DNA from: Clostridia bacterium
Lineage (GTDB): Bacteria; Bacillota; Clostridia; Christensenellales; Aristaeellaceae
DNA length: 64,000 nt
Direction of reading: 5' to 3'
Assembly: GCA_017521565.1 (NCBI GenBank)
Contig: JAFXCE010000126.1
Coordinates: 1 to 64,000, forward strand
In this document: positions 34,497 to 50,507 of the stretch, one piece after another
Numbering within the stretch: the stretch's first letter is position 1
Layout: each line of letters starts with the position of its first letter
Position numbers and translations under genes: made by a program
Notes under the pieces: generated by a model
Told to the model about the DNA's origin: nothing
Database searches by the model: none
Seen by the model: the letters and a program-made list of their open reading frames with translations, nothing else

Positions 34497-34537
34497 ATAA
34501 ATATAAACCCCTTTTATTAATTACAGGAGGATCGCAT

Positions 34538-35743
34538 ATGTCCATTTTCGGCGTATGGATGTGGCCTCACAGCGTTGCTGTCAGCGGCGCTGAAAAAGCT
34601 GCGGCGCTCTGTGCAGACATCGGCATATCGGATATCTATTTTCTGACAAAGGGTCTGTCGGGCATAGCCTCCTGCCGGAGCGCGTTTGCCCCGCAGGATG
34701 ATGACCGCGATCTCCTTGCCGAACTGCTCCAAGCTGCGCACGCGCGCGGTATCCGCGTACACGCATGGCTGACCTCCACCAGCGATGAGCATTACAAGCA
34801 TCTTTTTCCTGATAGCGGACGCTGCCACTATACCCGGGGAAAGGACAAGGGATTGATCGCCCTGACCGACTGCGGATACCTTTCCTACATGGAGCAATTC
34901 GTGCGCGAACTGTGCCGGAATTATGCCATCGACGGGCTGCATCTTGATTATATCCGCTACAACCATCTGCTTTACGGCTGGTCCAAGGATGATCAGGCTC
35001 GCTACGCAGCATCCGGTGCGGATATTGCACATCTGCGCCGCCTCATGGATAAAACCTTTATCAGCAATCAGGATCCCAATGCGATCTTTGATGCATACCG
35101 TTCGGGAGATGAAAGTGTTCTCGCCCTCGCCCAGGTCCGGCGTCTCGATGTTCTGCGCTTTGCGCAGGCGCTGACCGCATGCGCACGTGCAGAACGAAAG
35201 GAGCTGATTCTCAGCGCCGCGCTGATGCCGGAAGGCGCATATGACGACTTGGCATTTTCGGATCTGCACTACGGCCAAAGCTATCAGGATGCTGCCGGTT
35301 TATATGATTACGTCCTTCCGATGGCCTATTCGCATGCCTATCGGAAAGACAGCCGGTGGGTTCGTTCTGTCGCGGAAGGTACGCTGAAAAAAGGCCTGCG
35401 GGCCGTCATGGGGCTGCACGCCTACGACGGCGGAACCGCCGCTTCCCTGCACGCCGATATGCATGCGCTCGGGCAGATCCCCGTCTGCGGCGTATGCCTG
35501 TTCCGCTTTGGCGCCTTTGCCGTCGCTATCCCGGACGGCGCCTCCCTGCGCATCATCAATCCGCTTGATCAGCCCATCACTTCCGTAACATCAGCCGGCG
35601 GCGATGCTCTCCTTGGCGGCGCGCTTGCCCCCGGCTGCGAGACAAGGATTCCCCTGCCCCCGACCTGTTCCCTCCTGCGCGCATTCTGTGGAGACAGCGA
35701 AATCTGTCTTTATACCGCAGACCAGATCACGACAAAGAAATAA
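34538..35743 (+). CDS. Glycoside-hydrolase-like protein (GHL10-type TIM barrel)
   Basis: A 401-residue protein. IGISDIYFLTKGLSG, HARGIRVHAWLTS and DGLHLDYIRYNHLLYG follow the pattern of GHL10/DUF187-like barrels, which are related to glycosidases; the DGLHLDYIRY strand is the hallmark. YDYVLPMAYSHAYRKDS is a later barrel strand. There is no signal peptide, so it acts inside the cell. The last 80 residues look like a small beta domain. It is the first gene of an operon with the LOR/SDH and GH20 genes, and GGAGGATCGCAT precedes the ATG. Confidence 0.75.
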   Translation: MSIFGVWMWPHSVAVSGAEKAAALCADIGISDIYFLTKGLSGIASCRSAFAPQDDDRDLLAELLQAAHARGIRVHAWLTSTSDEHYKHLFPDSGRCHYTRGKDKGLIALTDCGYLSYMEQFVRELCRNYAIDGLHLDYIRYNHLLYGWSKDDQARYAASGADIAHLRRLMDKTFISNQDPNAIFDAYRSGDESVLALAQVRRLDVLRFAQALTACARAERKELILSAALMPEGAYDDLAFSDLHYGQSYQDAAGLYDYVLPMAYSHAYRKDSRWVRSVAEGTLKKGLRAVMGLHAYDGGTAASLHADMHALGQIPVCGVCLFRFGAFAVAIPDGASLRIINPLDQPITSVTSAGGDALLGGALAPGCETRIPLPPTCSLLRAFCGDSEICLYTADQITTKK

Positions 35744-35757
35744 AGAGGTGTATCGCC

Positions 35758-36846
35758 ATGTTTTCGCTTCGCCGCTATACCGCGCCAGACTTCACGCAGC
35801 CGCTCTTTACCCATGCGCCAGATGCCGTGTTCCTTCCCGCGCCGAAAGACGGCGTTGCGCCGGAAAACTTCCACGCCATGAGCATCTATCCGGAATACGT
35901 CAAGGTCGGCGGGCAATGGCTGCTTGCCGAGGAAAGCCGCATGGACTGTGCCGCCGTTTTGGAACAAGGCCGCATCGCCGTCCGCGAATTTCGCCTTCTG
36001 AAGGAGGGGGACATGGTGCTCATCGGGCGGACGGAGCGCTGCGAGGAGGGAATTTATCTGCATGCCACTGGCTTCTCCCGGCAGGAAACGGAGCAGGAGG
36101 CCTTCTCCTTCCGGCGCAGCCGCAGCCGAGAAACCGCCTATTCACAGGATTACACGGAGCTGTACGATCTGCTGCGCCATGAGCGTGAGCACGGCCGCAT
36201 TGTGTGGGTTCTTGGGCCGGCGTTCTCCTTTGACAAGGACGCACGCGATGCAATGAGCTGGCTGATTGAAGCCGGATATGTACATGCCATCCTCGCCGGC
36301 AACGCGCTGGCGACGCATGATCTGGAGGGCGCGTATCTCGGCACAGCGCTGGGCCAGGACATCTATACCCATATCTCCCAGCCCAACGGACACTACAACC
36401 ATCTGGAAACCATCAACCGCGTCCGTCTGCACGGAAGCATTGACGCATTCATCCGTGAGGAAGGCATGGACAACGGTATCATCTACAGCTGCGAAAAATG
36501 CGGCGTGCCCTATGTGCTGGGCGGTTCCATCCGCGATGACGGCCCGCTGCCGCCGGTGTATGGCAATGTATATGAAGCGCAGGACGCTATGCGCAGCCAT
36601 CTGCGCACGGCCACAACCGTCATCTGCATGGCCACTATGCTGCACACCATCGCCTCCGGCAACATGACGCCCTCCTATCGCGTGACCGCTGACGGAACCA
36701 TCCGCGAGGTATACTTCTATTGCGTGGACGTCAGCGAATTCGCCATCAACAAGCTGGGCGACCGCGGAAGCCTGAGCGCCCGCGGCATCGTCACCAATGT
36801 TCAGGACTTTGTGGTTCTCCTTCAGAAAAACCTGAGTTCAACCTGA
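35758..36846 (+). CDS. LOR/SDH-type protein (TIGR00300, archaeal ornithine cyclodeaminase-like)
   Basis: A 362-residue protein. The N-terminal 100 residues and the C-terminal part resemble the LOR/SDH conserved region of TIGR00300: VWVLGPAFSFDKDARDAMSW, then EAGYVHAILAGNALATHDLE, then GHYNHLETINRVRLHGSIDA. In archaea and cyanobacteria this domain catalyses ornithine cyclodeamination or forms part of the arginine dihydrolase ArgZ/AgrE. A CEKCGVPYVLGGSIRDDGPL segment follows. The surrounding genes are glycosidases, so amino-acid specificity here is uncertain. It starts 14 bases after the previous gene with AAAGAGGTG. Confidence 0.7.
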   Translation: MFSLRRYTAPDFTQPLFTHAPDAVFLPAPKDGVAPENFHAMSIYPEYVKVGGQWLLAEESRMDCAAVLEQGRIAVREFRLLKEGDMVLIGRTERCEEGIYLHATGFSRQETEQEAFSFRRSRSRETAYSQDYTELYDLLRHEREHGRIVWVLGPAFSFDKDARDAMSWLIEAGYVHAILAGNALATHDLEGAYLGTALGQDIYTHISQPNGHYNHLETINRVRLHGSIDAFIREEGMDNGIIYSCEKCGVPYVLGGSIRDDGPLPPVYGNVYEAQDAMRSHLRTATTVICMATMLHTIASGNMTPSYRVTADGTIREVYFYCVDVSEFAINKLGDRGSLSARGIVTNVQDFVVLLQKNLSST

Positions 36847-36875: not shown

Positions 36876-38648
36876 ATGATTCTGTTTCCCCAGCCGCGCA
36901 GCCTTCAGCTTCTTGGCGGCACGTATTCCCTGCCGTTTGGCGCACAGCACCGTGAACTCACAGCGTTTTTCAAAGCTATCCGCAGCGGTATGCCGGGCGT
37001 CTGCGTTACGTTTTCCCCGCTGCTTGACCGGGAGGAATACCATCTTTCCATCGACGCACAGGGCGTAAGCATCCTCGTCTCTTGCGAGGAGGGACTTTTC
37101 CGCGCCATCACTTCCCTGCATCAGATGCTCCTGCGCGGCAAGGGCGTTCTCCCCTGCGTTTGCATCGAGGACAAACCCGAGCTGCCCCGCCGCGGCTACA
37201 TGCTTGATATCAGCCGCGGCCGAAAGCCGAAGATGGAAACGATCAAGACCATGATCGACTTCCTTGCCGCACTCAAATACAACGAGTTCCAGCTGTATAT
37301 GGAGGGCGACTGCTTCAAGTACGCGGCTTATCCCAAGGAGACCGCACATTTTGACTGCCTCACGCCCGAAGATATTCAGGAGCTTGACCGCTACTGCCGA
37401 GAGAGATTCATTGACCTCGTGCCCAATCAGAACTCGTTTGGCCATATGTATACCTGGCTGAAAAAACCGGACTTCCATCACCTCGGTCTGTTCGAGCGCG
37501 AAGACGAGGTCCCCTCCACGCTCAATCCGCTCCTGCCGGAGAGCTTTGAATTCGTCTGCAACCTCTATGCCTCCCTCCTGCCGCATTTCACCTCGGATTA
37601 CGTGAACATCGGTCTTGATGAGGCCTACGGCCTTGGCCGCTATCAGATCGAGGCATACTGCCGCGAGAAAGGCAAGGACGTCGTCTTTATGGAATGGCTG
37701 AATAAGCTGAGCGACCACATTAAGGCGACCTACGGCAAGAAGGTCATGTTCTGGGCAGACATGATTTACAACTATCCTCAGAGCTATCACATGGTCCCCA
37801 AGGACGCCATCGCGCTGGAATGGGGCTATGAACTGATCCAGTCCCAGCGGATGACCGATCACTGCATTGCTTACCGCAATGCCGGTGTGCGCTACTACGT
37901 CTGTCCCTCCGTGAACACGCACGGCAGCCTGACCAGCCGTATGGATGTAACCACGTTCAACATCCGCACAAGCGCGGAGCTTGCCGTTGAGTACGGCGCG
38001 GAAGGCCTGCTGCTCACCGACTGGGGCGACGGCGGCCATCCGCAAAGCTGGGTATGGAGCATGACGCCCATCGCCCTCGCCGGTCAATACGGCTGGAACA
38101 CCGGCAAGCCGCAGGACGGCGAATCCTTCAAGGCGGATTTCATCCGGAATTCCGAAGCGTTTGTCGATGAGGTCTTCTTTGGCGGTGCAAGCGTCTCGCG
38201 CCTGATGTACCGCATGGCCAACTACTATCTGCTTGAGCCTGAGCGCGTACACGTATGCACGATGAGCGCCAAGCATCTGGGCATCCCGCTGCATGAGACG
38301 CGCTACGCGCACCTGTTTGACATGAAGGACAGCGGCGATGATTTCTACTTTGACAACGTGACGGATTACGTCCGCCGCGTGATGGCGGACATCGAAAAGC
38401 TCTCCTTTGACGAACTGCTCAAGCGCGAAATCCGCCTGACTGCGCGGCTGATTGAGCTGGGCAGCGAACTGTGCAAGGTCAAGCTGCACCCGCAGCAGTC
38501 CATCGCCAAGGCGCAGGAGCTGGCCGATATGATCGACTGCATTCTGCCCGAATACACGGAAATCTGGAACATCCGCAACTATGAGATGGGCATCGAGCGC
38601 TTTGTGAATCACCTCAAATCCAGAAGGGACGAGCTTCTCGCACTATAA
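36876..38648 (+). CDS. Glycoside hydrolase family 20 (beta-N-acetylhexosaminidase-like)
   Basis: A 590-residue protein. The N-terminal domain is followed by a barrel with GYMLDISRGRKPKMETIKTM, then KYNEFQLYMEGDCFKYAAYP, LVPNQNSFGHMYTWL and VNIGLDEAYGLGRYQIEAYC. The Asp-Glu in IGLDEA lies where the GH20 catalytic pair is expected. There is no signal peptide, so substrates are probably imported oligosaccharides or glycopeptide fragments. The ATG at 36876 follows AAAGGAGG. A near-perfect 30-base hairpin follows the gene as a terminator. It is the last gene of the three-gene operon. Confidence 0.82.
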   Translation: MILFPQPRSLQLLGGTYSLPFGAQHRELTAFFKAIRSGMPGVCVTFSPLLDREEYHLSIDAQGVSILVSCEEGLFRAITSLHQMLLRGKGVLPCVCIEDKPELPRRGYMLDISRGRKPKMETIKTMIDFLAALKYNEFQLYMEGDCFKYAAYPKETAHFDCLTPEDIQELDRYCRERFIDLVPNQNSFGHMYTWLKKPDFHHLGLFEREDEVPSTLNPLLPESFEFVCNLYASLLPHFTSDYVNIGLDEAYGLGRYQIEAYCREKGKDVVFMEWLNKLSDHIKATYGKKVMFWADMIYNYPQSYHMVPKDAIALEWGYELIQSQRMTDHCIAYRNAGVRYYVCPSVNTHGSLTSRMDVTTFNIRTSAELAVEYGAEGLLLTDWGDGGHPQSWVWSMTPIALAGQYGWNTGKPQDGESFKADFIRNSEAFVDEVFFGGASVSRLMYRMANYYLLEPERVHVCTMSAKHLGIPLHETRYAHLFDMKDSGDDFYFDNVTDYVRRVMADIEKLSFDELLKREIRLTARLIELGSELCKVKLHPQQSIAKAQELADMIDCILPEYTEIWNIRNYEMGIERFVNHLKSRRDELLAL

Positions 38649-39971: not shown

Positions 39972-40553
39972 TTATTCCTTCCAGAACAGGAAATATGGGC
40001 GCTCAAAGCAATCCTTTTCAATCTCGGAAAAATCCGCGTAAGCGTCCGTCCCGTCAAGACGGACCTTTTCCTTTCGGCCCTGCTTTTCAAAGCGGTCGCT
40101 GCCTTCCTTGTACATCGGATCCCAGACCTTGATCTCGGTTCCGTTCGCTCCGGCGAGGACGATATAGTGTCCCGAATCGGAAAACACGCCGATATGCCCT
40201 TCCCTGTCACCGCGGACGTTGGCAATGATCATGCCGCGCCCTTCCTGCAGAAAGCGCAGCGCTTCCTGCCCATCTTCGGTATCGCGCACCTGCAGGCCAA
40301 CATGCCTTGCAAACGCAGGCGCATAGATATACAGATCTGTGCCGTAGCCTTCGCGCGCGCCGCAGGCCTTGGCGAGCTTTGCGCTCTCCTCCGGCGGGAA
40401 CGCAATCCCCAGCATGTTTTCCGCCACCATCGAAGCCGCGCAGACGCCGCAGCCATTGTTGGCGATATTGCCGTTCTTCGCGCCAACCGGAGACGGATAC
40501 GGCACATGCTCATAATCCAGCTGGCAATAAAACGCCGTCTTCTTTTCAGCCAT
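39972..40553 (-). CDS. C39-like (papain-fold) peptidase domain protein
   Basis: A 193-residue protein. NNGCGVCAASMVAENMLGIA carries the Cys nucleophile; GHIGVFSDSGHYIVLAGANG holds the His, and IKVWDPMYKEGSDRFEKQG the Asp of a Peptidase_C39_2 domain. No signal peptide is seen, so it works in the cytosol or leaves by another route. Its ATG overlaps the end of the M20 amidohydrolase gene by eight bases; a coupled pair that could both cut peptide or amide bonds. Confidence 0.8.
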   Translation of the reverse strand: MAEKKTAFYCQLDYEHVPYPSPVGAKNGNIANNGCGVCAASMVAENMLGIAFPPEESAKLAKACGAREGYGTDLYIYAPAFARHVGLQVRDTEDGQEALRFLQEGRGMIIANVRGDREGHIGVFSDSGHYIVLAGANGTEIKVWDPMYKEGSDRFEKQGRKEKVRLDGTDAYADFSEIEKDCFERPYFLFWKE

Positions 40554-41763
40554 TGTCCTTCGCCTCCTCCGGCATGGTCATCCCTTCAATGCCATGCATG
40601 TTGTCCAGCACGAACTGCACAAAGACCTTCACGCCCGTCTCAAGCGCATCCTCGTCAATGTCCCAGTCCCTGTTATGCGCCGGATGGCAGCAGCCCTTTG
40701 CCTCATTGCGCATGCCAAGGCCAAAGAGCAGACCCGGCTTTTCCTTCTCGTAATAGGCAAAGTCCTCCGCGCCCGGGGAAGGCGCCAGCACAATCACCTT
40801 TTTGCTGCCGACGACCTTGCGCGCAGAAGCGGTAAACGCCTCGTACATCGCAGGATCGTTGTGCGCGCCGGGCAGCGGCTCGCCGGACCACTCAAGCGAC
40901 CAGGTGGTTCTCGACTGCTCCGCCGTCAGGCGGATAAGCTCTTCCAATCTCTTCTGCGCCCACGCCATCGTCCTGTCATGCAGGCAGCGAATGGAACCCC
41001 TCAGGACGCACTTGTCCGCGTTGGCGGCGACGGTCTCGCCCGCCTGCATGCAGGTTACGCTCATCACGCAGGTATCAAACGGGTCCACCTCGCGGGAGAC
41101 GAGCATCTGGATGCCGTTATAGATCTTCACGCCTGCCGCCAGCGCATCGATGCCCGCATGCGGGGACGCAACATGCACCGCCTTGCCCCCGAGCGTAATC
41201 GTAAACGCCACGGAAGAGGAATTGGTCACCCCGGGGTTGGATGAAATCACGTGCGTCTCATCCACGCAGTTCACATGGCACATGATGATACAGTCGATGT
41301 CCTTCATCACGCCATGCTCGCACATGGTCTTCGCGCCGCTGGGCCGGCTCTCCTCGCAGGGCTGGAACAGCAGCTTCACGCGGCAGGAAAGACGGTCTCG
41401 AATCGCATGCAGCGCTTTCGCCGTTCCAAGGAGCATGGCCGTATGCGCATCATGCCCGCAGGCATGCATCACGCCGTCATTTTGGGAGCGATACGGCTTG
41501 TCATGGTTGTTTTCCAGAATCGGCAGCGCGTCCATATCCGCCCGGATGCCGATGGTGAAGTCCGTCTTTTCCGGGTTGATCGTCGCCACGATCGTATTGC
41601 GTCCATACCTGTCCGCTTCGTATTCGACGCCGATGCCGTCCAGTTCGCGGCGCACAAGCGCAGCCGTCCGGTCCAGATCCCAGCGAAGCTCCGGATGCAT
41701 ATGCAGCTCACGGCGGATCGCCACAAGCTCATCCTGGCAGACAGGGGCGATGGTATAATCCAT
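40546..41763 (-). CDS. M20 family amidohydrolase
   Basis: A 405-residue protein. RRELHMHPELRWDLDRTAAL, GIRADMDALPI, MHACGHDAHTAMLLGTAKAL and PCEESRPSGAKTM show the M20D metal site (Cys, His, Glu, His). SPGAEDFAYYEKEKPGLLFG gives the last His/Asp-type ligand zone. Such enzymes hydrolyse N-acyl amino acids or related amides (hippurate, N-acetyl amino acids, indole-acetyl conjugates). GGGAAGGCAT precedes the ATG. It overlaps the C39-like gene and lies beside an ABC transporter for a sugar-like substrate. Confidence 0.9.
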   Translation of the reverse strand: MDYTIAPVCQDELVAIRRELHMHPELRWDLDRTAALVRRELDGIGVEYEADRYGRNTIVATINPEKTDFTIGIRADMDALPILENNHDKPYRSQNDGVMHACGHDAHTAMLLGTAKALHAIRDRLSCRVKLLFQPCEESRPSGAKTMCEHGVMKDIDCIIMCHVNCVDETHVISSNPGVTNSSSVAFTITLGGKAVHVASPHAGIDALAAGVKIYNGIQMLVSREVDPFDTCVMSVTCMQAGETVAANADKCVLRGSIRCLHDRTMAWAQKRLEELIRLTAEQSRTTWSLEWSGEPLPGAHNDPAMYEAFTASARKVVGSKKVIVLAPSPGAEDFAYYEKEKPGLLFGLGMRNEAKGCCHPAHNRDWDIDEDALETGVKVFVQFVLDNMHGIEGMTMPEEAKDNG

Positions 41764-41833
41764 ATGCCTTCCCTCTTTTCAAAGCAGTTAAGGGGTTATT
41801 CTGCATGCACAGATCAAACCCCTTTCCGGAAGG

Positions 41834-41859
41834 AAAAAGGCGGAGGCTAAGCCTCCGCC
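41834..41859 (-). terminator. Terminator of the ABC transporter operon
   Basis: GGCGGAGGC pairs perfectly with GCCTCCGCC around TAA; the minus-strand transcript ends in TTTTTCC, just after the binding protein gene. Confidence 0.9.
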
Positions 41860-41895
41860 CCATGGGGTTTGATTGTGTCGATTTCGGAAAATCGA

Positions 41896-43332
41896 TTACT
41901 GCGCGAGGTACGCGTCCAGCTGCGCCTGAGCCTCAGCCTGAACAGCCTCGATGCCGGCGGCCTTCAGTTCTTCCTTGATGGTCTCAAGCTTCGCATCGAT
42001 GTCCAGCGTGCCGGTCAGCATCTCAGCAGTGTACTTCTCCATGACCGCGGAGCAGGCCGCACATTCGGCTTCCACGTTGGTCTTGTCGAAGGTGAAGGTG
42101 CCCAGGGTGGAGACGATCGCATTCTCATAATCAGCGAAGATCTCTTCCCAGTCATAGTAGGAATCGGTGGTGCAGGAAGCATTCACGACAGAACCGGTCA
42201 CGAAGCCGTCCATGGACCAGTTGTTGTTGCCCTGCTCGGTGCGCTCGACAACCTTATTGCCGTTGACTTCGGTATAGTTGAAGTGCGTGCCCTCAACGCC
42301 GTAGCGGAGGATGTCGCGGAAGGTGCGGTCGGTGTTCAGCAGCTCGAGGTACTTCAGGCAAGCGATGGCCTGCTCCTCAGAAGCAGCGGCGTTGATCGCG
42401 TTCATCGCGCCGCGCATGGTCGCGGTGGACATGAACGGGCCGGCGTAGCTCGCGCCATGGACAACGATGCCCGCCCAGCTGGAGTAGCCCGCATAGTAGC
42501 CCTTCCAGGCAGAGCCGGAACGGACGGCCGCGCGGATGTCAGAACCGATGGACTCGATGGTCGCGGCGTCGGGGTTGATGTAGCCCAGATCATACCACTT
42601 GTGCAGCAGCTGGTAGCGCTCCATCAGAACCTCATCCTCCCAGAACGGGATGATCTTGTTCTCACGGTCGGTACCGGCGAGATGATACGGAGAGCACAGG
42701 TAGTTGCCCGCGATCCACTGCGCGCTGTTGGTCATACCGGTCAGGCCGCCCTTGCCCATCATCAGCGGGTAGAGGTCGTCATAGTTCTCCTTGTACGCCT
42801 TGAGCAGCGGCTCAAGCTCAGCAAAGGTCATTTCGTCCGGAAGCTCGCAGCCGATGGCTTCGAAGCGTTCCTTATCCAGACGGAAGAACTGCTGGCTGGC
42901 CATGTCCTTCAGGGTCGGCACAGCGTAGATCTTGCCGTTCAGGGAGCCGGCGACGTCCCAGTACTTCTGATCGATGGTCTCATAGAGCGCCGGCGTGGCG
43001 GTCTTGACCAGATCAGTGATGTCATAGAACATCTCGTTGATCGCGTTGTCAGCGAAGTTGTTCGCCCAGTCGCAGGTGAACGTCATGTCGTAGGGTTCGC
43101 CGGTCTGCATGCCCAGACCAAACTGCTCTTCATTCTTGAAGATGAGTTCGACTTCGACGCCGATCTTCTCAGCAGAGTAAGCGTTGGCAGCATCAACGAC
43201 CATCTGGGTATCGATCGGGGCGTCGCCGCTGGCGTAGACCCACCAGACGATCTTCTGGGTTTCGGCGGAAGCGGTGCAGGCAACGGCGAGCACCAGCATC
43301 AGCGCGAGCGCGAGAGACAGGAACTTCTTCAT
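41896..43332 (-). CDS. Extracellular solute-binding protein (YtcQ/LplA type, DUF3502)
   Basis: A 478-residue protein with a signal peptide (KKFLSLALALMLVLAVACTA) and a Cys at about residue 20 as the lipid anchor. QKIVWWVYASGDAPIDTQMV starts the mature part. The middle and the C-terminal domain (ending LKAAGIEAVQAEAQAQLDAY) fit family-1 sugar-binding proteins with the DUF3502 ending. The substrate may be a complex glycan fragment. AAAGGAGGTTTTCGC precedes the ATG. It follows two permease genes, and no ATP-binding subunit is present, as is common with LplBC-type systems that share MsmK. Confidence 0.92.
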   Translation of the reverse strand: MKKFLSLALALMLVLAVACTASAETQKIVWWVYASGDAPIDTQMVVDAANAYSAEKIGVEVELIFKNEEQFGLGMQTGEPYDMTFTCDWANNFADNAINEMFYDITDLVKTATPALYETIDQKYWDVAGSLNGKIYAVPTLKDMASQQFFRLDKERFEAIGCELPDEMTFAELEPLLKAYKENYDDLYPLMMGKGGLTGMTNSAQWIAGNYLCSPYHLAGTDRENKIIPFWEDEVLMERYQLLHKWYDLGYINPDAATIESIGSDIRAAVRSGSAWKGYYAGYSSWAGIVVHGASYAGPFMSTATMRGAMNAINAAASEEQAIACLKYLELLNTDRTFRDILRYGVEGTHFNYTEVNGNKVVERTEQGNNNWSMDGFVTGSVVNASCTTDSYYDWEEIFADYENAIVSTLGTFTFDKTNVEAECAACSAVMEKYTAEMLTGTLDIDAKLETIKEELKAAGIEAVQAEAQAQLDAYLAQ

Positions 43333-43391
43333 GCGAAAACCTCCTTTAAGTTCAACTAAAGCGGCGCTTGGCCGTTTGTTGCAAAAATGGA

Positions 43392-44324
43392 TCATCCCTT
43401 GACGGCGCCAATGGTCAGGCCGCCGACAAAGTAGCGCTGGAAGAACGGATACGAGCAGGCAATGGGCAGAACGACAACCATGACGATGGCCATGCGCATC
43501 GTTTCCGAAGGAAGATTCTTCATGGACTCTTCCCTGAAATAGTCCTCATTGCGCGCCATAAAGGAAATGTTCTTTTCGATGGAGATCAGAACGTACTGCA
43601 GCGGATACAACTCGCGATGGTTGCTGTCGATGTAGAGCATCGCGCCGTACCACATGTTCCAGTAGTTGAAGGTGAGGAACAGGCCGATCGTCGCGATAAC
43701 CGGCAGGGAAATCGGCAGCACCAGCTGGGTGAAGATGCGGAGCTGGCTCGCACCGTCGATCTTTCCGGATTCGATGATGCCGTCCGGCAGCGTCGTCTGG
43801 AAGAACGTACGCATGACGATGACGTAGAACGTCGAGCACGCGCCGGGCAGGATCATCGCCCAGTAGGTATTCTTGAGATGGTAGATCTGGGTATTGACCA
43901 TATAGCGCGCCACAAGGCCGCCCGAAAACAGCATCGGGATGATCAGCAGCCACGTATACAGGCCCTTCATGTAGTAATTCGGGCGGGACAGCACATAGCC
44001 CAGCGTCGAGGTGAGCACCAGACCAATCAGCGTACCCACAAGGGTGATGCCGACCGAATTGACAAACGACCGGCCGATATAGTCCTTGGACTGCCAGAGA
44101 TATTTGTAGGATTCCAGCGAAAGCTCCGCCGGGAAAAAGCTGTAGCCGTTCTGGGCGATGGACGCCTCGGAAGAAATCGAAATGATGAACACGAACACCA
44201 CCGGCAGGAACGTGATGATCGCCAGCAGAACGAAGATCAGCGTAAAGAGCGCATTGGTCGTCGGTTTGATGCAGTTAAAGCGGTTAAAACCATCCTGCGG
44301 AATCCGCTTTGCCTTCTTTTCCAT
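43392..44324 (-). CDS. Sugar ABC transporter permease (YtcP/LplC type)
   Basis: A 310-residue membrane protein with six predicted helices. SFVNSVGITLVGTLIGLVLT and the EAA loop ESGKIDGASQLRIFTQLVLP identify the inner-membrane permease. FQRYFVGGLTIGAVKG is the typical C-terminus of the LplC/YtcP type. It is 59 bases ahead of the binding protein gene and 25 after the partner permease. Confidence 0.92.
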   Translation of the reverse strand: MEKKAKRIPQDGFNRFNCIKPTTNALFTLIFVLLAIITFLPVVFVFIISISSEASIAQNGYSFFPAELSLESYKYLWQSKDYIGRSFVNSVGITLVGTLIGLVLTSTLGYVLSRPNYYMKGLYTWLLIIPMLFSGGLVARYMVNTQIYHLKNTYWAMILPGACSTFYVIVMRTFFQTTLPDGIIESGKIDGASQLRIFTQLVLPISLPVIATIGLFLTFNYWNMWYGAMLYIDSNHRELYPLQYVLISIEKNISFMARNEDYFREESMKNLPSETMRMAIVMVVVLPIACSYPFFQRYFVGGLTIGAVKG

Positions 44325-44349
44325 GGCTTATACCTCCCTCCTGCCGGAA

Positions 44350-45330
44350 TCAGAACAGACCGCTTTCCGGATCAATCTTCTTGACAACGATGTTGGCGAT
44401 GATCAGCAGGATGCAGCCCAGCACGCTCTGCAGCAGCGCCACAGCAGAAGAATAGTTATAGTTGTTGCTCTGGATCAGCGCCTTGTGCACGTAGACATCA
44501 AGCGTCTGCGTGACGTTGATGAGGGAGTTGGAGTCGCGCGTGACCTGAAAGAAAAGGCCAAAGTCCGTGGAGAAGATGCTGCCCACGTTCATGATGAACA
44601 TGATAGAAATCACCGGACGCAGCAGCGGAACGGTAATCCCCCACGTTTGCTGCCACTTGTTCGCGCCGTCGATGACCGCGCTCTCATAAAGGCTCTGGTC
44701 GATGCCGGTGATGGTCGCCATATACACGACCATCGAGTAGCCAAAGGTCTTCCATGTATTGATGAATACCAGCAGATACGGCCAGTATTTGGGATCCTGA
44801 TACCAGAGAATCGCCTCGCCGCCCATGGAGACGATCAGCGAATTGACGAGGCCCTTGTCCGTGGAGAGGAAAGCAAAGACGAAATAGCTGATGACCACCC
44901 ACGACAGGAAATGCGGCAGGAATACCGCAGTCTGGCAGACCTTGGCCACCTTTCGCGAATACAGCTGGGTGATCATGATCGCCAGCGCAACCGGCAGCGT
45001 AATGCCAATGATGATGAATATGATATTATATCCGACGGTATTGCGGAAAATATTGGCGATATCCGGCGAACGGAACAGAAACTCGAAGTTCTTAAGGCCC
45101 ACCCATTTGCTGGAGACAAACAGGCTGTAGAGGAAGCCCTTGCCGGGCTTATACTTATAGTTCTTAAAGGCGAAGACGATGCCGAACATCGGCACATAGC
45201 AAAAGGCGATCAGCCATGCGATCGTCGGCAGAGAGAGCAGCGTAAGCTCCAGATCGTCCCATGTGAACTTTCTGCGCTTTTTCCTGATCGGCGCAGCCTC
45301 ACCCTTGACGGCCAGATTGTCCTTGCGCAT
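44350..45330 (-). CDS. Sugar ABC transporter permease (LplB type)
   Basis: A 326-residue membrane protein. The N-terminal cytosolic part is basic (IRKKRRKFTWDDLELTLLS). PTIAWLIAFCYVPMFGIVFA is the first helix, and YESAVIDGANKWQQTWGITV the EAA loop. It pairs with the LplC-type permease. I chose the ATG at 45330, preceded by GGAGGTGCGGAGG; the longer open frame upstream lies over the promoter. It is the first gene of the leftward ABC operon. Confidence 0.9.
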   Translation of the reverse strand: MRKDNLAVKGEAAPIRKKRRKFTWDDLELTLLSLPTIAWLIAFCYVPMFGIVFAFKNYKYKPGKGFLYSLFVSSKWVGLKNFEFLFRSPDIANIFRNTVGYNIIFIIIGITLPVALAIMITQLYSRKVAKVCQTAVFLPHFLSWVVISYFVFAFLSTDKGLVNSLIVSMGGEAILWYQDPKYWPYLLVFINTWKTFGYSMVVYMATITGIDQSLYESAVIDGANKWQQTWGITVPLLRPVISIMFIMNVGSIFSTDFGLFFQVTRDSNSLINVTQTLDVYVHKALIQSNNYNYSSAVALLQSVLGCILLIIANIVVKKIDPESGLF

Positions 45331-45387
45331 CCTCCGCACCTCCGTTTCTGGATACAGGAAAGAACACGGCTCTCCCGCAGCAGATTC

Positions 45388-45416
45388 AGTATAGCACAGT
45401 CCACATGCGATAGCAA
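45388..45416 (-). promoter_or_regulatory. Promoter of the sugar ABC operon
   Basis: On the minus strand TTGCTA (45411-45416), a 17-base spacer and TATACT (45388-45393), about 58 bases before the permease ATG. It faces away from the divergent kinase operon at 45538. Confidence 0.75.
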
Positions 45417-45537
45417 GCATTTTTCAACCCTTTTTATAAATACATTATTCATTAAAGGGAATTGTACATTCGCGTCGAATAGATAAGTAATTGGTATGCC
45501 CATCGGGCGTCAAAGCGCAAAGAAGGAGGCGAAGCGC

Positions 45538-46503
45538 ATGCAGCAAGGTCTGCTGATCGGCATCGACGGAGGCGGCACACATTCCACCGCTGTAGCCGCA
45601 TGGCCGGATGGACGGATTGCCGCCGTCGCCCATGGCGGAGGATTGAATTACCACAACATCGGCGTGGATACCGTGCGCCGCCGCCTTCAGGATATGGTAC
45701 AGGAGCTGTGCGAAAAGGCCGGCGCGCCGCTGCATCGTGTTTGCGTGGGCATGTCCGCGCTGGACGGCCCTGCCGACGAACAGACGCACGCGCTGTTCAC
45801 TTCCGATCTCATCACCCGCGAGCAGCTGGATCTTCAGTCGGATGCATACATCGCGCTGATGGGTTTTACGCGCGGCGAGCCCGGCATGATCGTCATCTGC
45901 GGCACGGGTTCCATGCTCCTGCTGCGCGACGAAGCGGGCGCTCAGCATGTCAGCGGCGGCTGGGGCTATCTCCTCGGGGATACCGGCAGCGGTTATACCC
46001 TCGCGCGCGAGGGACTGATTGCTGCCATCGACGCAACCGAGGGCCTTGGCTGTCCCACAGTGCTTGAATCCCTCGCCTGCCGGTATTTCGGCACATCCAC
46101 CCTGCGCCAGACGATCGACTGCATCTACGCGCCGGATTTTACGCCCGACCGGATGGCAGGCTTTGCGCGGCATGTGATTCAAGCGGCAGACGACGGGGAT
46201 ACGGCGGCAAGCGACGTCCTCCAGAGCAACATGAACCGCCTCGCGCGGCAGACCGTATGTCTGCTTGAAAAGGCGCCCGCTGCCAGACGCGTAGGCCTGT
46301 ACGGCGGCATATTTGCCCACAGCGAAAAGGCGCAAGCCTGCTTCACCCATACGCTGCGCGCGCTCGCGCCCCGGGCGAAAATCTGCGCGCTTGAATACAC
46401 GCCCGAGTTAGGCGCAATCATCCACCTGATGCAAAAAGAAGGTCTGCTCAGCCAGGAGCGGCTCAGCCTTTTAAAACAAAGCTATGAGGAACATTTGCGA
46501 TGA
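45538..46503 (+). CDS. BadF/BadG/BcrA/BcrD-type sugar kinase (N-acetylglucosamine kinase-like)
   Basis: A 321-residue protein. LIGIDGGGTHSTAVAAWPDG is the phosphate-1 motif of the BadF/N-acetylglucosamine kinase group. VICGTGSMLLLR, GGWGYLLGDTGSGYTLAREG and VGLYGGIFAHSEKA complete the ASKHA fold. Members phosphorylate N-acetylglucosamine or N-acetylmuramic acid. The ATG at 45538 has AAGGAGGCGAAGCGC ahead. The stop overlaps the SIS gene as ATGA. It is divergent from the sugar ABC operon, so it probably acts on the imported sugar. Confidence 0.88.
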   Translation: MQQGLLIGIDGGGTHSTAVAAWPDGRIAAVAHGGGLNYHNIGVDTVRRRLQDMVQELCEKAGAPLHRVCVGMSALDGPADEQTHALFTSDLITREQLDLQSDAYIALMGFTRGEPGMIVICGTGSMLLLRDEAGAQHVSGGWGYLLGDTGSGYTLAREGLIAAIDATEGLGCPTVLESLACRYFGTSTLRQTIDCIYAPDFTPDRMAGFARHVIQAADDGDTAASDVLQSNMNRLARQTVCLLEKAPAARRVGLYGGIFAHSEKAQACFTHTLRALAPRAKICALEYTPELGAIIHLMQKEGLLSQERLSLLKQSYEEHLR

Positions 46504-47237
46504 GTACAATCAATACCTATTTTGATAACCTGCAGGCGCTGCTTGCCCGTACGCTTGAAACCCAGCAGTCTTCTATGGAAACCGCCGCCCGCAGGATTGC
46601 GGACTGCATGAAGGGCGGCGGCATGATCTATACCTTCGGCACAGGACACGGTCATCTGCTCGCGCTGGAAATCTTCTATCGCGCAGGCGGCATGGCGCGC
46701 GTCTGTCCGATCATGGACGACAAGCTGATGCTGCACGTCAGCGCAGCGGGCAGCACGCTGGAAGAACGCAAGGAAGAATGGGTTCCCCTTCTCCTTGAGC
46801 GCTATCCCATTAAGGAAAACGACATCCTGATTTCCATCTCCAATTCCGGCAGAAACGCTGTGCCGGTTTTGCTGGCCAGGGAAGCGCGGGCGCGCGGCGC
46901 ATATGTCATCGCGCTCACCAGCATGAACCACACAACCGCCGTCACCTCCCGCAACAGCCTGAACCTGCGTCTGTTTGAAACCGCCGATCTGATTCTTGAC
47001 AACGGCGGCGTGCTGGGCGACGCGGCGATCTCCTTTGCAGACGGCTCCATGGTCGGCCCCACCTCCACCGCAGTGGGCGCAGCGATGCTGCAGGCGATCG
47101 TCTGCCGTGTCAAGGAGCTCTCCCTTGATGAGGGCTTTGAGGCCGACTTCTTTAAGTCCAGCAACGTAGACGGCGGCGATGCATGGAATGACCGCCTGAT
47201 TGAACGCTATAAAGATATGATCCCCGGTCTTCTTTAA
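46500..47237 (+). CDS. SIS domain protein (UPF0309 type)
   Basis: A 245-residue protein. GMIYTFGTGHGHLLALEIFY and ISISNSGRNAVPVLLAREAR hold the SIS sugar-phosphate-binding loops. LDNGGVLGDAAISF and GPTSTAVGAAMLQAIVCRV fit UPF0309. SIS proteins isomerise or cleave phosphosugars, for example as MurQ-like etherases or deaminases. The ATG overlaps the kinase stop, so kinase product to SIS protein is a likely metabolic step. Confidence 0.85.
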   Translation: MSTINTYFDNLQALLARTLETQQSSMETAARRIADCMKGGGMIYTFGTGHGHLLALEIFYRAGGMARVCPIMDDKLMLHVSAAGSTLEERKEEWVPLLLERYPIKENDILISISNSGRNAVPVLLAREARARGAYVIALTSMNHTTAVTSRNSLNLRLFETADLILDNGGVLGDAAISFADGSMVGPTSTAVGAAMLQAIVCRVKELSLDEGFEADFFKSSNVDGGDAWNDRLIERYKDMIPGLL

Positions 47238-47251
47238 GAAGGAGGAACGTT

Positions 47252-48475
47252 ATGCGCGCAGGCTTTGGCAAATCGGAACTGACGCCGCCCATGGGCGTCG
47301 AGCTTGCAGGCTACGGCTATTATCTCGGCCGGTGCGCACAGTCCGTGCGCGATCCGCTCTATGCGCGCGCCCTGCTGCTTGAAGATCATGGCGAACGAGC
47401 GCTGATCATCAGCTGTGATCTGCTCGGCCTCAGCCGCGGCGTTTGTGCGCAGGTCTTTGATCACGCCGCTGCGCTTGGCATTGCGCAGGAGCGCGTAATG
47501 ATCGTCAGCATCCACACGCATACAGGCCCCACGATCAAGTATCATGAGGGCTGCGGCTTCGTCAGCGACGAATATGTGAATACCGTCGCCCCGATCATCT
47601 GCCGGGCAATCGATGCGGCTGCAGATGACCTTGATGAGGTCACTGCGCTCGATTTTGTCTCTGCGCCGTTTGACGGCGAGCACATCTACAACCGCACCAT
47701 CAAAGACGGCCCGGTCGATCGTACTGTGCGCGGCTTCACCTTCCGCCGCAGGAAGCATTCCCCCATCGCCGCCGTCAGTGCAGCCTGCCATGGCGTATTC
47801 CGCGGGCGTGTCACAGCGGTCTCTGCCGACTTTGCCGGTGAGATCTGCCGCATTCTGGATACTCAGGGGATGCAGACGATCTACCTCAACGGACTTTGCG
47901 GCGACATCGATCCAACCAAGCAGGACGATGCGCTGCTTGATTCCTTCGCCGCGCTGGTTGCACGTCATTTCACGCAGGATAGCCGCACGCTTTCTCCGTC
48001 TCTGCGCGGCGAGACGCTCCCCTTTACCCTTCAGCTGCTCCCCGTCACCATCGATGACATTCATGCCGCTGCCGAGCAGGCAGAGCGCCGAGCTGGCGGC
48101 GAGGACATGCCTGCCGCGCGTGTCGCCCGGACATGGGAGCGGGAAATGCTTCAGAAATTCTCCGCACTTGAAACAAAGGAGCATATCACCGCCAAGCTCC
48201 TGATTCTGGGCGGCGTGCCCGTTCTTGCGCTCCCCTTTGAGGGCTTTACGCAGATCGGCATGGATATCCGCCGCCTGTGCGGCCGGGAGGACGCGCTGAT
48301 TCTGGGCTGCGCAGAGGAACTGCTCGGCTATCTTCCCACCAAAGACGATATTTCGCGCGGCACCTATGCGGCGCTTGAATCCACATTTCTTTACAAGCGT
48401 CTGCCCGTTGTTCCCGGGGAAGCGGAACGCCTCGGTCAGGAAATGGGCGCTGCACTCGAAAGGATTCTTACATGA
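47252..48475 (+). CDS. Neutral/alkaline ceramidase N-terminal domain-like protein
   Basis: A 407-residue protein. RAGFGKSELTPPMGVELAGY is the opening of the neutral ceramidase-like domain, and VMIVSIHTHTGPTI holds its zinc-binding His pair. CHGVFRGRVTAVSADFAGE and YLNGLCGDIDPT are later conserved parts. Members in Firmicutes are poorly studied, lack the C-terminal domain of true ceramidases, and occur in glycan operons. There is no signal peptide, so the substrate is inside the cell. It is 14 bases after the SIS gene, and its stop overlaps the ROK gene as ATGA. Confidence 0.8.
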   Translation: MRAGFGKSELTPPMGVELAGYGYYLGRCAQSVRDPLYARALLLEDHGERALIISCDLLGLSRGVCAQVFDHAAALGIAQERVMIVSIHTHTGPTIKYHEGCGFVSDEYVNTVAPIICRAIDAAADDLDEVTALDFVSAPFDGEHIYNRTIKDGPVDRTVRGFTFRRRKHSPIAAVSAACHGVFRGRVTAVSADFAGEICRILDTQGMQTIYLNGLCGDIDPTKQDDALLDSFAALVARHFTQDSRTLSPSLRGETLPFTLQLLPVTIDDIHAAAEQAERRAGGEDMPAARVARTWEREMLQKFSALETKEHITAKLLILGGVPVLALPFEGFTQIGMDIRRLCGREDALILGCAEELLGYLPTKDDISRGTYAALESTFLYKRLPVVPGEAERLGQEMGAALERILT

Positions 48476-49623
48476 AATCACTTGATCAATCCGCCATCCG
48501 AAAGCAAAACATCCGCAGGATCCTCGATCTGCTGACCGTTCAGGCTCCCCGCACACGCCAGTCTCTTGCGGAGGCGACGGGTCTGAGTTTAATGACGGTC
48601 ACCAATCTCGTCGATCAGCTCAAAGAGCAGCAGGTGCTGGAGCTTGCGCCTGTTCCGCGCTGCGGCGGGGATCGTCACAGTTCCGGACGCAAGGCGGAAA
48701 ACATCTCCCTTCGCGGCAGCGGTCACGCCTGGCTGATCGTCGATCTCTCCGGAAAGCATTTCCGCTATACCCTGCTCGGCTTTGATCTCGCCGTCCTGCA
48801 TGAACACAACTGCGCTGCGGAAGGTGAATATCTCTCCCGGCTGACCGCATTTCTCAGTGCGATCCGCGAGGAAATCTCCGCGCCGCTGGCGGGTCGTTCT
48901 CTGCTGGGTGTCGCCGTCGTTACACCGGGCCCCTATGAAATCAGCTGCGATACGGTGTACAATCAGCGTCTGCCCGAACTCAATGATGTAAGAATCAAGG
49001 CTCTGATGCAGCGCTGCCTCGGCAATTTTGATTACTACGTAGATGAGGACGTCAAATTCGCCGTGCGGGCGTTTGCGCCCATGAGCAATCAGGATTCCTG
49101 CGAGCTGCTGTATTATCTGTTTATCGGCGAGGGCGTCGGGGGATCCGCCGTGCATAACGGCAACATGCTCCGCGGCCTGAATGCCACGGCGGGCGACGCA
49201 GGCCAGCTGACCACGCCGGAGGGCGTCACCTATGAAAGCCTGATTTCCCTCTCCTCTTTTGCCGCGTTGCTCGGCTGCGGCGCGCAGGATAACGAGCGGC
49301 TCCTGCAGCAGCTTGAGGCGTATGCCGCCGAACATCCTAAAGCCTATCTTTCCGCGCTGCAAAAAGCCGCGGCAACGGTTGGCGATATGCTCTACAATGT
49401 GCTCTGGGTGCTTGATCCTGGACATATCATCATCGATTGTCGCTATGTGTTTTCATTCCGGGAGGAATTCATCGGATTCATTGCCGAATACATCGCACGT
49501 CGCCTCGCCGCCGCCGGGAAAAGAATGCCCACCATTGCCGCTGCCCCACAGGGAATGAGCAGCGTCGTGCGCGGCGCTGTTCAGGTGCTGCAGCGCGAAT
49601 GGATCGAGCGAATTCTCTCCTGA
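48472..49623 (+). CDS. ROK family transcriptional regulator
   Basis: A 383-residue protein. Residues 5-65 are a winged helix (SAIRKQNIRRILDLLTVQAP, then LAEATGLSLMTVTNLVDQL). The rest is a ROK domain: VAVVTPGPYEI, YYVDEDVKFAVRAFAP, YYLFIGEGVGGSAVHNG and NATAGDAGQL. The CxCGxxGCxE zinc motif of ROK kinases is not evident, so it is probably a regulator that senses a sugar. It is the last gene of the kinase-SIS-ceramidase operon and the likely regulator of it and of the divergent ABC transporter. Confidence 0.88.
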   Translation: MKSLDQSAIRKQNIRRILDLLTVQAPRTRQSLAEATGLSLMTVTNLVDQLKEQQVLELAPVPRCGGDRHSSGRKAENISLRGSGHAWLIVDLSGKHFRYTLLGFDLAVLHEHNCAAEGEYLSRLTAFLSAIREEISAPLAGRSLLGVAVVTPGPYEISCDTVYNQRLPELNDVRIKALMQRCLGNFDYYVDEDVKFAVRAFAPMSNQDSCELLYYLFIGEGVGGSAVHNGNMLRGLNATAGDAGQLTTPEGVTYESLISLSSFAALLGCGAQDNERLLQQLEAYAAEHPKAYLSALQKAAATVGDMLYNVLWVLDPGHIIIDCRYVFSFREEFIGFIAEYIARRLAAAGKRMPTIAAAPQGMSSVVRGAVQVLQREWIERILS

Positions 49624-49676: not shown

Positions 49677-49697
49677 ATTTGCAAAGGAGTGTACCGT

Positions 49698-50507
49698 ATG
49701 TTTCTGCATGCTAAAAACGGCACCATCTCCCTCGCAGGCGATTCCATGCATTACATCCGCTTCGGCAGCGGCAGCAAAACCCTCGTCATGCTCCCCGGTC
49801 TCGGCGACGGCCTGACCACCGTCAAGGGCACCGCGCTGCCCATGGCGTTCATGTATCGCGCTTATGCCGGGGACTACACGGTTTATATGTTCAGCCGCAG
49901 GAATCATCTGCCTGCGGGCTGCAGCACGCGCGACATGGCCCGCGATGTAAAGGACGCGATGGAGGCGCTGGATATCCAAAAAGCCGATCTCATCGGCGTG
50001 TCCATGGGCGGCATGATCGCGCAGCACTTCGCAGCAGATTACCCCAAGTGCGTCAGAAAACTCATCCTTGTTGTGACCTCTGCGGAGCCCAACCCCATTT
50101 TGTCCGAGTCCATCCACGAATGGACAGCGCTTGCCCGACGCGGCGATCATACGGCCCTCATGGACAGCAATGTGCGGCGCATGTACTCTGATGCCTACTA
50201 CCGCAAAAACCGATACCTGATCCCCATCATGGGCAGGCTTACCAAACCCAAATCCTATGACCGCTTCTTCATTCAGGCTGACGCCTGCCTGACCCACAAC
50301 GCTGCAGACCGCCTTGAAACAATCGAAGCGCCCACGCTGGTTATCGGCGGCGCGCAGGACCGCGCGCTCGGCGGCGACGCCTCACGGAGAATCGCTGCGT
50401 CCATCCCCGGCGCCAAACTTAGCATCTATGCGCAATGGGGACACGGGCTATATGAGGAAGCCAAAGACTTTAACCAGCTCGTGCTCGGATTCCTGCGAAA
50501 CGGATAA
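49698..50507 (+). CDS. Alpha/beta hydrolase
   Basis: A 269-residue protein. HYIRFGSGSKTLVMLPGLGD gives the oxyanion region; the nucleophile is Ser in LIGVSMGGMIAQHFAADYPK. VIGGAQDRALGGDASRRIAA holds the Asp and YAQWGHGLYEEAKDF the His. The substrate is unknown. AAAGGAGTGTACCGT precedes the ATG. It has its own transcription unit after the kinase-ROK terminator. Confidence 0.85.
   Translation: MFLHAKNGTISLAGDSMHYIRFGSGSKTLVMLPGLGDGLTTVKGTALPMAFMYRAYAGDYTVYMFSRRNHLPAGCSTRDMARDVKDAMEALDIQKADLIGVSMGGMIAQHFAADYPKCVRKLILVVTSAEPNPILSESIHEWTALARRGDHTALMDSNVRRMYSDAYYRKNRYLIPIMGRLTKPKSYDRFFIQADACLTHNAADRLETIEAPTLVIGGAQDRALGGDASRRIAASIPGAKLSIYAQWGHGLYEEAKDFNQLVLGFLRNG

Follow-up and report, generated by a model that had tools for sequence, protein, structure and literature searches.

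The window analyzed here is the whole 64,000-nucleotide stretch of DNA from Clostridia bacterium (GCA_017521565.1, contig JAFXCE010000126.1). Within it, genes for a BadF-type sugar kinase, a UPF0309 SIS-domain protein (SIS), a ceramidase-like hydrolase (CER) and a ROK-family regulator form a tight operon, which stands opposite the genes for an LplB-LplC-substrate-binding protein (SBP) importer that run on into those for an M20 amidohydrolase and a C39-like hydrolase. The genes lie where an earlier note on this DNA had placed them, and its four-gene operon facing an LplBC-type importer with DUF3502 is confirmed. Two further genes, GHL10 and GH20, sit 7-11 kb from this core and are members of the gene set, making it larger than first noted. 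The features are as follows:

34538..35743, plus strand: GHL10-type putative glycosidase (Pfam GHL10, 31.0 bits, cut-off 27.9)
36876..38648, plus strand: GH20 beta-N-acetylhexosaminidase-like protein (Pfam GH20, 9e-18)
39972..40553, minus strand: C39-like predicted cysteine hydrolase (Peptidase_C39_2, 28.3 bits, cut-off 24)
40546..41763, minus strand: M20 amidohydrolase, TIGR01891 subfamily (309 bits, cut-off 154)
41896..43395, minus strand: SBP with DUF3502 (domain match)
43392..44324, minus strand: LplC-type permease (BPD_transp_1, 28.1 bits)
44350..45420, minus strand: LplB-type permease (BPD_transp_1, 38.5 bits)
45419..45441, plus strand: AT-rich element in the divergent promoter region, candidate regulator site
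45496..46503, plus strand: BadF-type sugar kinase (family match)
46500..47237, plus strand: UPF0309 SIS-domain protein, NagS relative (NF002805, 263.6 bits, curated cut-off 135)
47252..48475, plus strand: CER, catalytic domain only (PF04734-type)
48472..49623, plus strand: ROK-family regulator with an N-terminal winged helix (family match)

Translation of three of these genes probably starts at other positions: at 43332 for SBP, where the open reading frame would give a lipoprotein-like beginning; at 45330 for LplB, since relatives' alignments begin at about residue 27-33; and at 45538 for BadF, where GGAGG precedes the ATG. By eye, neither the GHL10 nor the GH20 protein has a signal peptide, and the solved PDB relatives of the latter are hexosaminidases, a lacto-N-biosidase and GH20C. 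C35 and H129 of the C39-like protein are invariant in 12 relatives, and the best solved relative of the M20 protein is 4ewt (1e-63).

Two other genes were also observed. Between GHL10 and GH20 (35758-36846) lies a gene for a protein with ArgZ-like C-terminal domains, the role of which is not obvious and relatives of which stand at the cluster edge in three other loci (L003, L006 and L007; we number loci with L and genomes with G). After C39 (39640-39936), a 98-residue protein is encoded that gave no match in a Pfam search and has relatives in L003, L006, L007, L009 and L017. An alpha/beta hydrolase at 49689-50507 was dropped as a member of the set, not having been seen in related loci.

The solved relatives of BadF are a hexokinase, a MurNAc/GlcNAc kinase and NAGK; it scores 79.3 bits on the N-acetylglucosamine kinase equivalog NF046058, for which the cut-off is 370. 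Likewise, the ROK protein fails the NagC equivalog NF047937 (22.3 bits, cut-off 650). The AT-rich element has one match in the window at three or fewer mismatches (0.00 expected), a looser 3-mismatch copy lies at 34505, ahead of GHL10, and its core is present in six of ten LplB/BadF gaps examined. An exact dyad common to these gaps, as a ROK operator, was not found, and the AT-rich element is a possible regulator site.

CER has the fold of the neutral ceramidase catalytic domain, with His, Glu and Tyr invariant. Its PF04734 score is 30.7 bits against a gathering threshold of 32.1, and 32.3 bits in a whole-genome search. It has 407 residues, compared with 630-670 in solved neutral ceramidase chains, and the C-terminal domain is missing. 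Judging from the fold, CER would cut an amide.

The PDB relatives of the SIS protein are 3cvj and SCO4393. The latter is NagS of Streptomyces coelicolor, which dehydrates GlcNAc-6P to 6P-chromogen I, a product that NagA is able to deacetylate; in its report, H53, R64, E94 and D179 are given as essential and S91 and N228 as important (PMC12680351). The window protein retains H53, R64, E94, D179 and N228, with S91 replaced by Thr and S54 by Gly. In an alignment of 100 UPF0309 sequences (98 from our loci, NagS and BH3325), H53 and R64 are invariant, position E94 holds Glu in 92 sequences and Asp in five, D179 is Asp in 97, and N228 is Asn in 94. The essential residues are thus common to nearly all of these sequences and therefore do not single out NagS. 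By this comparison, NagS and the window SIS probably have their C2 chemistry in common. Distant homologs from Clostridium, Paenibacillus and Acidothermus are reported to have negligible or no GlcNAc-6P activity (PMC12680351), and a substrate other than GlcNAc-6P is likely.

UPF0309 genes also occur as pairs within one locus, often with BadF (L030, L033, L037, L130, L157, L164, L171 and L174); in the last five of these loci, DUF6259 and an ABC importer are often present as well. In L126, L128, L132, L149 and L162, a UPF0309 gene adjoins genes for creatininase-family, phosphotriesterase-family and galactitol-type PTS component proteins.

Scanning the CER protein against genome contigs gave 18 CER loci from other genomes, some on contigs that stop inside the cluster. 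BadF and SIS are present in 14 of the 18, LplB, LplC, SBP and M20 in 12 each, and C39 and ROK in 11 each; GH20 is found in seven and the different subfamily GH20C in three others (together ten), and GHL10 relatives in five. Thus the families do co-occur elsewhere, which the earlier note had proposed as a check, and the M20 and C39 enzymes that it placed beside the operon belong to the set. Since L010 and L011 carry M20 divergent to BadF-SIS-CER and no importer in the available stretch, M20 is seemingly closer to the core than the importer is. The note had also put the combination forward as a candidate undescribed system, and a description was not found in open-licence PMC papers. As an amino-sugar salvage cluster, the locus is real and conserved and, within the scope of that search, has not been described before.

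Four CER loci are without BadF and SIS (L013, L014, L018 and L019). A YtcJ-like amidohydrolase comes after CER in L013 (9430-11022) and L014 (1198-2796), the stretches of which lack BadF and SIS, and also in L011 (11279-12883). In L018 (8746-11242) and L019 (2428-4876), from Verrucomicrobiia and Kiritimatiellae, CER relatives that are 31-32% identical come directly after a DegT-family aminotransferase gene. In L010 (3428-4687), a protein that matches DUF362 and the N-terminal domain of lactate racemase (Lar_N) is encoded next to GH20-M20; we rejected it as a link to lactate, its relatives being absent from the other loci compared.

In a set of 398 Bacillota genomes, 69 carry UPF0309, 29 carry PF04734 and 24 carry both, against 5.0 expected (p 7e-16, relatedness ignored). 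Fifteen of the 36 PF04734 genes lie within 2 kb of a UPF0309 gene and 22 within 6 kb, the latter in 21 genomes. The tie is not strict: a linked CER is lacking in 48 of the 69 genomes with UPF0309, and 14 of the 36 PF04734 genes, including the one that matches PF04734 best (G208, 203 bits), are not linked either. CER-linked sequences occupy at least four separate places on the UPF0309 tree, one of which is that of the window type.

The distant clusters, which occupy the other places, take several forms. Six loci have an RpiR-CER-SIS-SBP-LplB/LplC-GH3 layout with GH84 and/or GHL10 (L125, L146, L147, L148, L151 and L153), and L144 has the same layout with weak PF04734 matches. Five are of a mannose-family PTS type (L133, L136, L156, L159 and L163; named by eye, with a Pfam check for L156 only), and in two (L139 and L143) a GlcNAc-2-epimerase-like gene accompanies an SSF symporter; among the annotated classes, no glycosidase was found in the PTS- and SSF-type clusters. 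One distant locus, L135, reads SBP-LplB-LplC-BadF-CER-M20-SIS-GHL10-GH3. Its BadF, CER, SIS and GHL10 proteins have 24-37% BLAST identity to those of the window, and its M20 protein is of the same Pfam family as the window M20 and gives no BLAST match to it. The recurrence of these genes in so distant a locus suggests that they work in a single pathway.

The neighbors of these genes bear on what SIS and CER do. NagB over its cut-off adjoins UPF0309 in L130 and L132, together with a NagA-like-type amidohydrolase, and PF01182 finds the same genes; L139 and L143 combine a PF01182 gene that scores under the NagB cut-off with an amidohydrolase, SIS and CER. Six UPF0309 loci carry SIS proteins that we label AgaS-like (L129, L130, L131, L141, L155 and L160). 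Because NagB or AgaS-like partners would be superfluous were SIS the deaminase, SIS appears to be an extra step, not a NagB substitute. A NagA-like amidohydrolase adjoins CER in L133, L139, L143, L156 and L159, the only NagA_N match above cut-off being in L130; with these weaker neighbor labels, we conclude less firmly that CER, too, is an extra step and not a NagA substitute. Most simply, SIS would act at an earlier step, bringing a modified HexNAc-6P into a form usable by NagA and NagB, and CER would hydrolyze a second bond.

With respect to the imported substrate, the best solved relatives of the SBP are 5swa, 5mlt and 5suo (~1e-32). 5SWA and 5SUO are NgtS, which binds N-glycan fragments (PMC5215778). 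Nine permeases outside CER clusters, in 60 related genomes, are 60-62% identical to the window LplB (58.6-61.4% by BLAST). Four of them (L044, L046, L047 and L048) adjoin MurQ, and four (L082, which belongs to the window's own genome, L083, L085 and L086) adjoin a beta-lactamase-fold gene and a GH3 gene with the motif KHFPG(H/C)G, which we take to be a NagZ-type mark; the ninth (L084) has neither kind of neighbor. MurQ or NagZ-type clusters thus house eight of the nine closest such permeases, which hints at a peptidoglycan-type substrate. Given L084, and permeases of distant CER clusters that share no more than 27-32% identity with those of the window, this argument is limited to the window type. 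The GHL10 family includes Cwp19, a peptidoglycan lytic transglycosylase (PMC6016235), and one GHL10 protein is reported to be active on starch (PMC9967864). The N-glycan-binding NgtS, the divergent permeases, the PTS- and SSF-type clusters in which no annotated glycosidase was found and the many genomes that have MurQ besides the linked pair (counts below) speak against a single cell-wall answer, and we put the chance that the substrate is a peptidoglycan-type fragment at less than even.

Beside LplB and GH3, L082 (9215-10984, contig C86) and L083 (10485-12254) encode a 589-residue protein that matches MurQ in two separate stretches, near residues 133-251 and 502-560, as though a large insertion interrupted MurQ.

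A plain MurQ-type route for N-acetylmuramate, which the earlier note had named as an example of the N-acetyl amino sugars that kinase plus SIS would fit, is not supported. The window SIS scores 22.6 bits on the MurNAc-6P etherase (MurQ) model NF003915, for which the cut-off is 168; of the 20 genomes that carry a linked CER-UPF0309 pair, 13 encode MurQ elsewhere, about as often as do the other UPF0309 genomes (29 of 48); and nagA and nagB are over cut-off elsewhere in the window's genome. MurQ, NamZ and NagZ-type GH3 were not found among the 13 window proteins Pfam-scanned at 34.5-50.5 kb. Across 29 same-genus genomes, UPF0309 is over cut-off in six, MurQ in nine and both in none; the two do occur together in G029, a genome from the same family. 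With G029 and the MurQ counts in hand, SIS was rejected as a plain MurQ substitute. The broader amino-sugar reading of the earlier note is partly supported, by the recurring set and by the addition of GH20 and GHL10.

From the gene content and its conservation, the folds, the catalytic residues kept and the CER-UPF0309 linkage, we infer a route, including its substrate, the order of its steps and each reaction. Somewhat short of even confidence, we propose that the locus, under ROK control, serves the catabolism of an imported compound of the amino-sugar kind, which would contain a beta-linked N-acetylhexosamine plus one or more other hydrolyzable bonds and would most likely be a peptidoglycan-type fragment. 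LplBC-SBP would import the compound, cytosolic GH20, perhaps with GHL10, would cleave the glycosidic part, M20 and C39 would trim peptidyl or acyl parts, and BadF would phosphorylate the sugar. UPF0309 would then deprotonate the open 2-acylamino-hexose-6-phosphate at C2 and expel the C3 substituent, a chemistry like that of NagS and MurQ, CER would hydrolyze an amide in the same compound, and the products would pass to NagA and NagB, encoded elsewhere in the genome. A generalization that we consider doubtful, and quite unlikely, is that UPF0309 and CER are a general two-enzyme module removing an amide-bearing C3 substituent from 2-acylamino-hexose-6-phosphates (e.g. muramyl-peptide-6P or muramic-delta-lactam-6P), which would feed NagA/NagB and salvage cell-wall sugars that are out of reach of MurQ.

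Other explanations make different use of the same genes. SIS-type deaminases exist, AgaS being one, and a single operon holds a kinase, a putative amidase and a SIS protein; BadF could therefore make HexNAc-6P, CER deacetylate it and SIS act as deaminase-isomerase, a non-orthologous replacement of NagA and NagB to which the similarity that we see between GlcNAc and the 2-acylamino-1,3-diol of ceramide would add. This is unlikely, given the nagA and nagB genes elsewhere in the window's genome, the NagB genes that adjoin UPF0309 in two loci and the NagA-like neighbors of CER in five, albeit with NagA_N above cut-off in L130 only. Dehydration of HexNAc-6P by SIS to a chromogen-I-like enamide, with CER as the dedicated deacylase of that product, would suit the retained catalytic residues, the SIS-CER adjacency and the deacetylation of 6P-chromogen I by NagA. 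We know of no gene at the locus for using the 3-deoxy product. The negligible or absent GlcNAc-6P activity reported for homologs from three genera outside Streptomycetaceae (PMC12680351) also counts against this route, and we judge it very unlikely.

The pneumococcal NgtS among the solved relatives of the SBP, the GH20 and GH20C types and the titles of the related metagenome-assembled genomes, which mostly point to animal guts, would all suit host or dietary glycopeptide use, in which N-glycan or mucin fragments with terminal HexNAc would be imported and trimmed by GH20, and M20, C39 and CER would take the glycopeptide part. However, a scan of proteins around the core, which covered a subset of the window's open reading frames, turned up no mannosidase, sialidase or fucosidase, and the closest permeases accompany MurQ or NagZ-type genes. 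We regard such use as rather unlikely.

The transferable finding is the UPF0309-CER pairing, seen repeatedly in Bacillota next to transporters of the ABC, PTS and SSF types. NagS is the sole characterized UPF0309 enzyme, and the gene neighbors narrow the possible substrates of the pair to phosphorylated N-acyl hexosamines that precede NagA/NagB and probably contain a second hydrolyzable bond. If true, the proposed route would mean that a group of bacterial proteins bearing the name ceramidase has a function unrelated to lipids.

Compared with known systems, CER is 17-18% identical to neutral ceramidases (PF04734; 2zws and 4wgk), differing from them in its place in a sugar operon and in having no signal peptide by eye. 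NagS and the window SIS are alike in family and in the five residues kept, whereas the NagS gene lies by dmdR1 and not in a catabolic operon (PMC12680351). NagK-NagA-NagB and aga-type pathways have the same general logic of phosphorylation, acyl removal and sugar-phosphate conversion, but NagA and NagB are absent from the window locus and stand beside UPF0309 as separate genes in other clusters. The NgtS-P1-P2 N-glycan importer of S. pneumoniae has an SBP of the same family (~1e-32 by sequence), although no N-glycan-trimming mannosidase was seen in the window locus. MurNAc salvage clusters (MurQ, BadF, NamZ and NagZ-type GH3; e.g. L046-L048) resemble the window in BadF and LplBC-SBP, with permeases ~59-60% identical, whereas the window has UPF0309 and CER for MurQ, has GH20 and GHL10 for NamZ and GH3, and adds M20, C39 and ROK.
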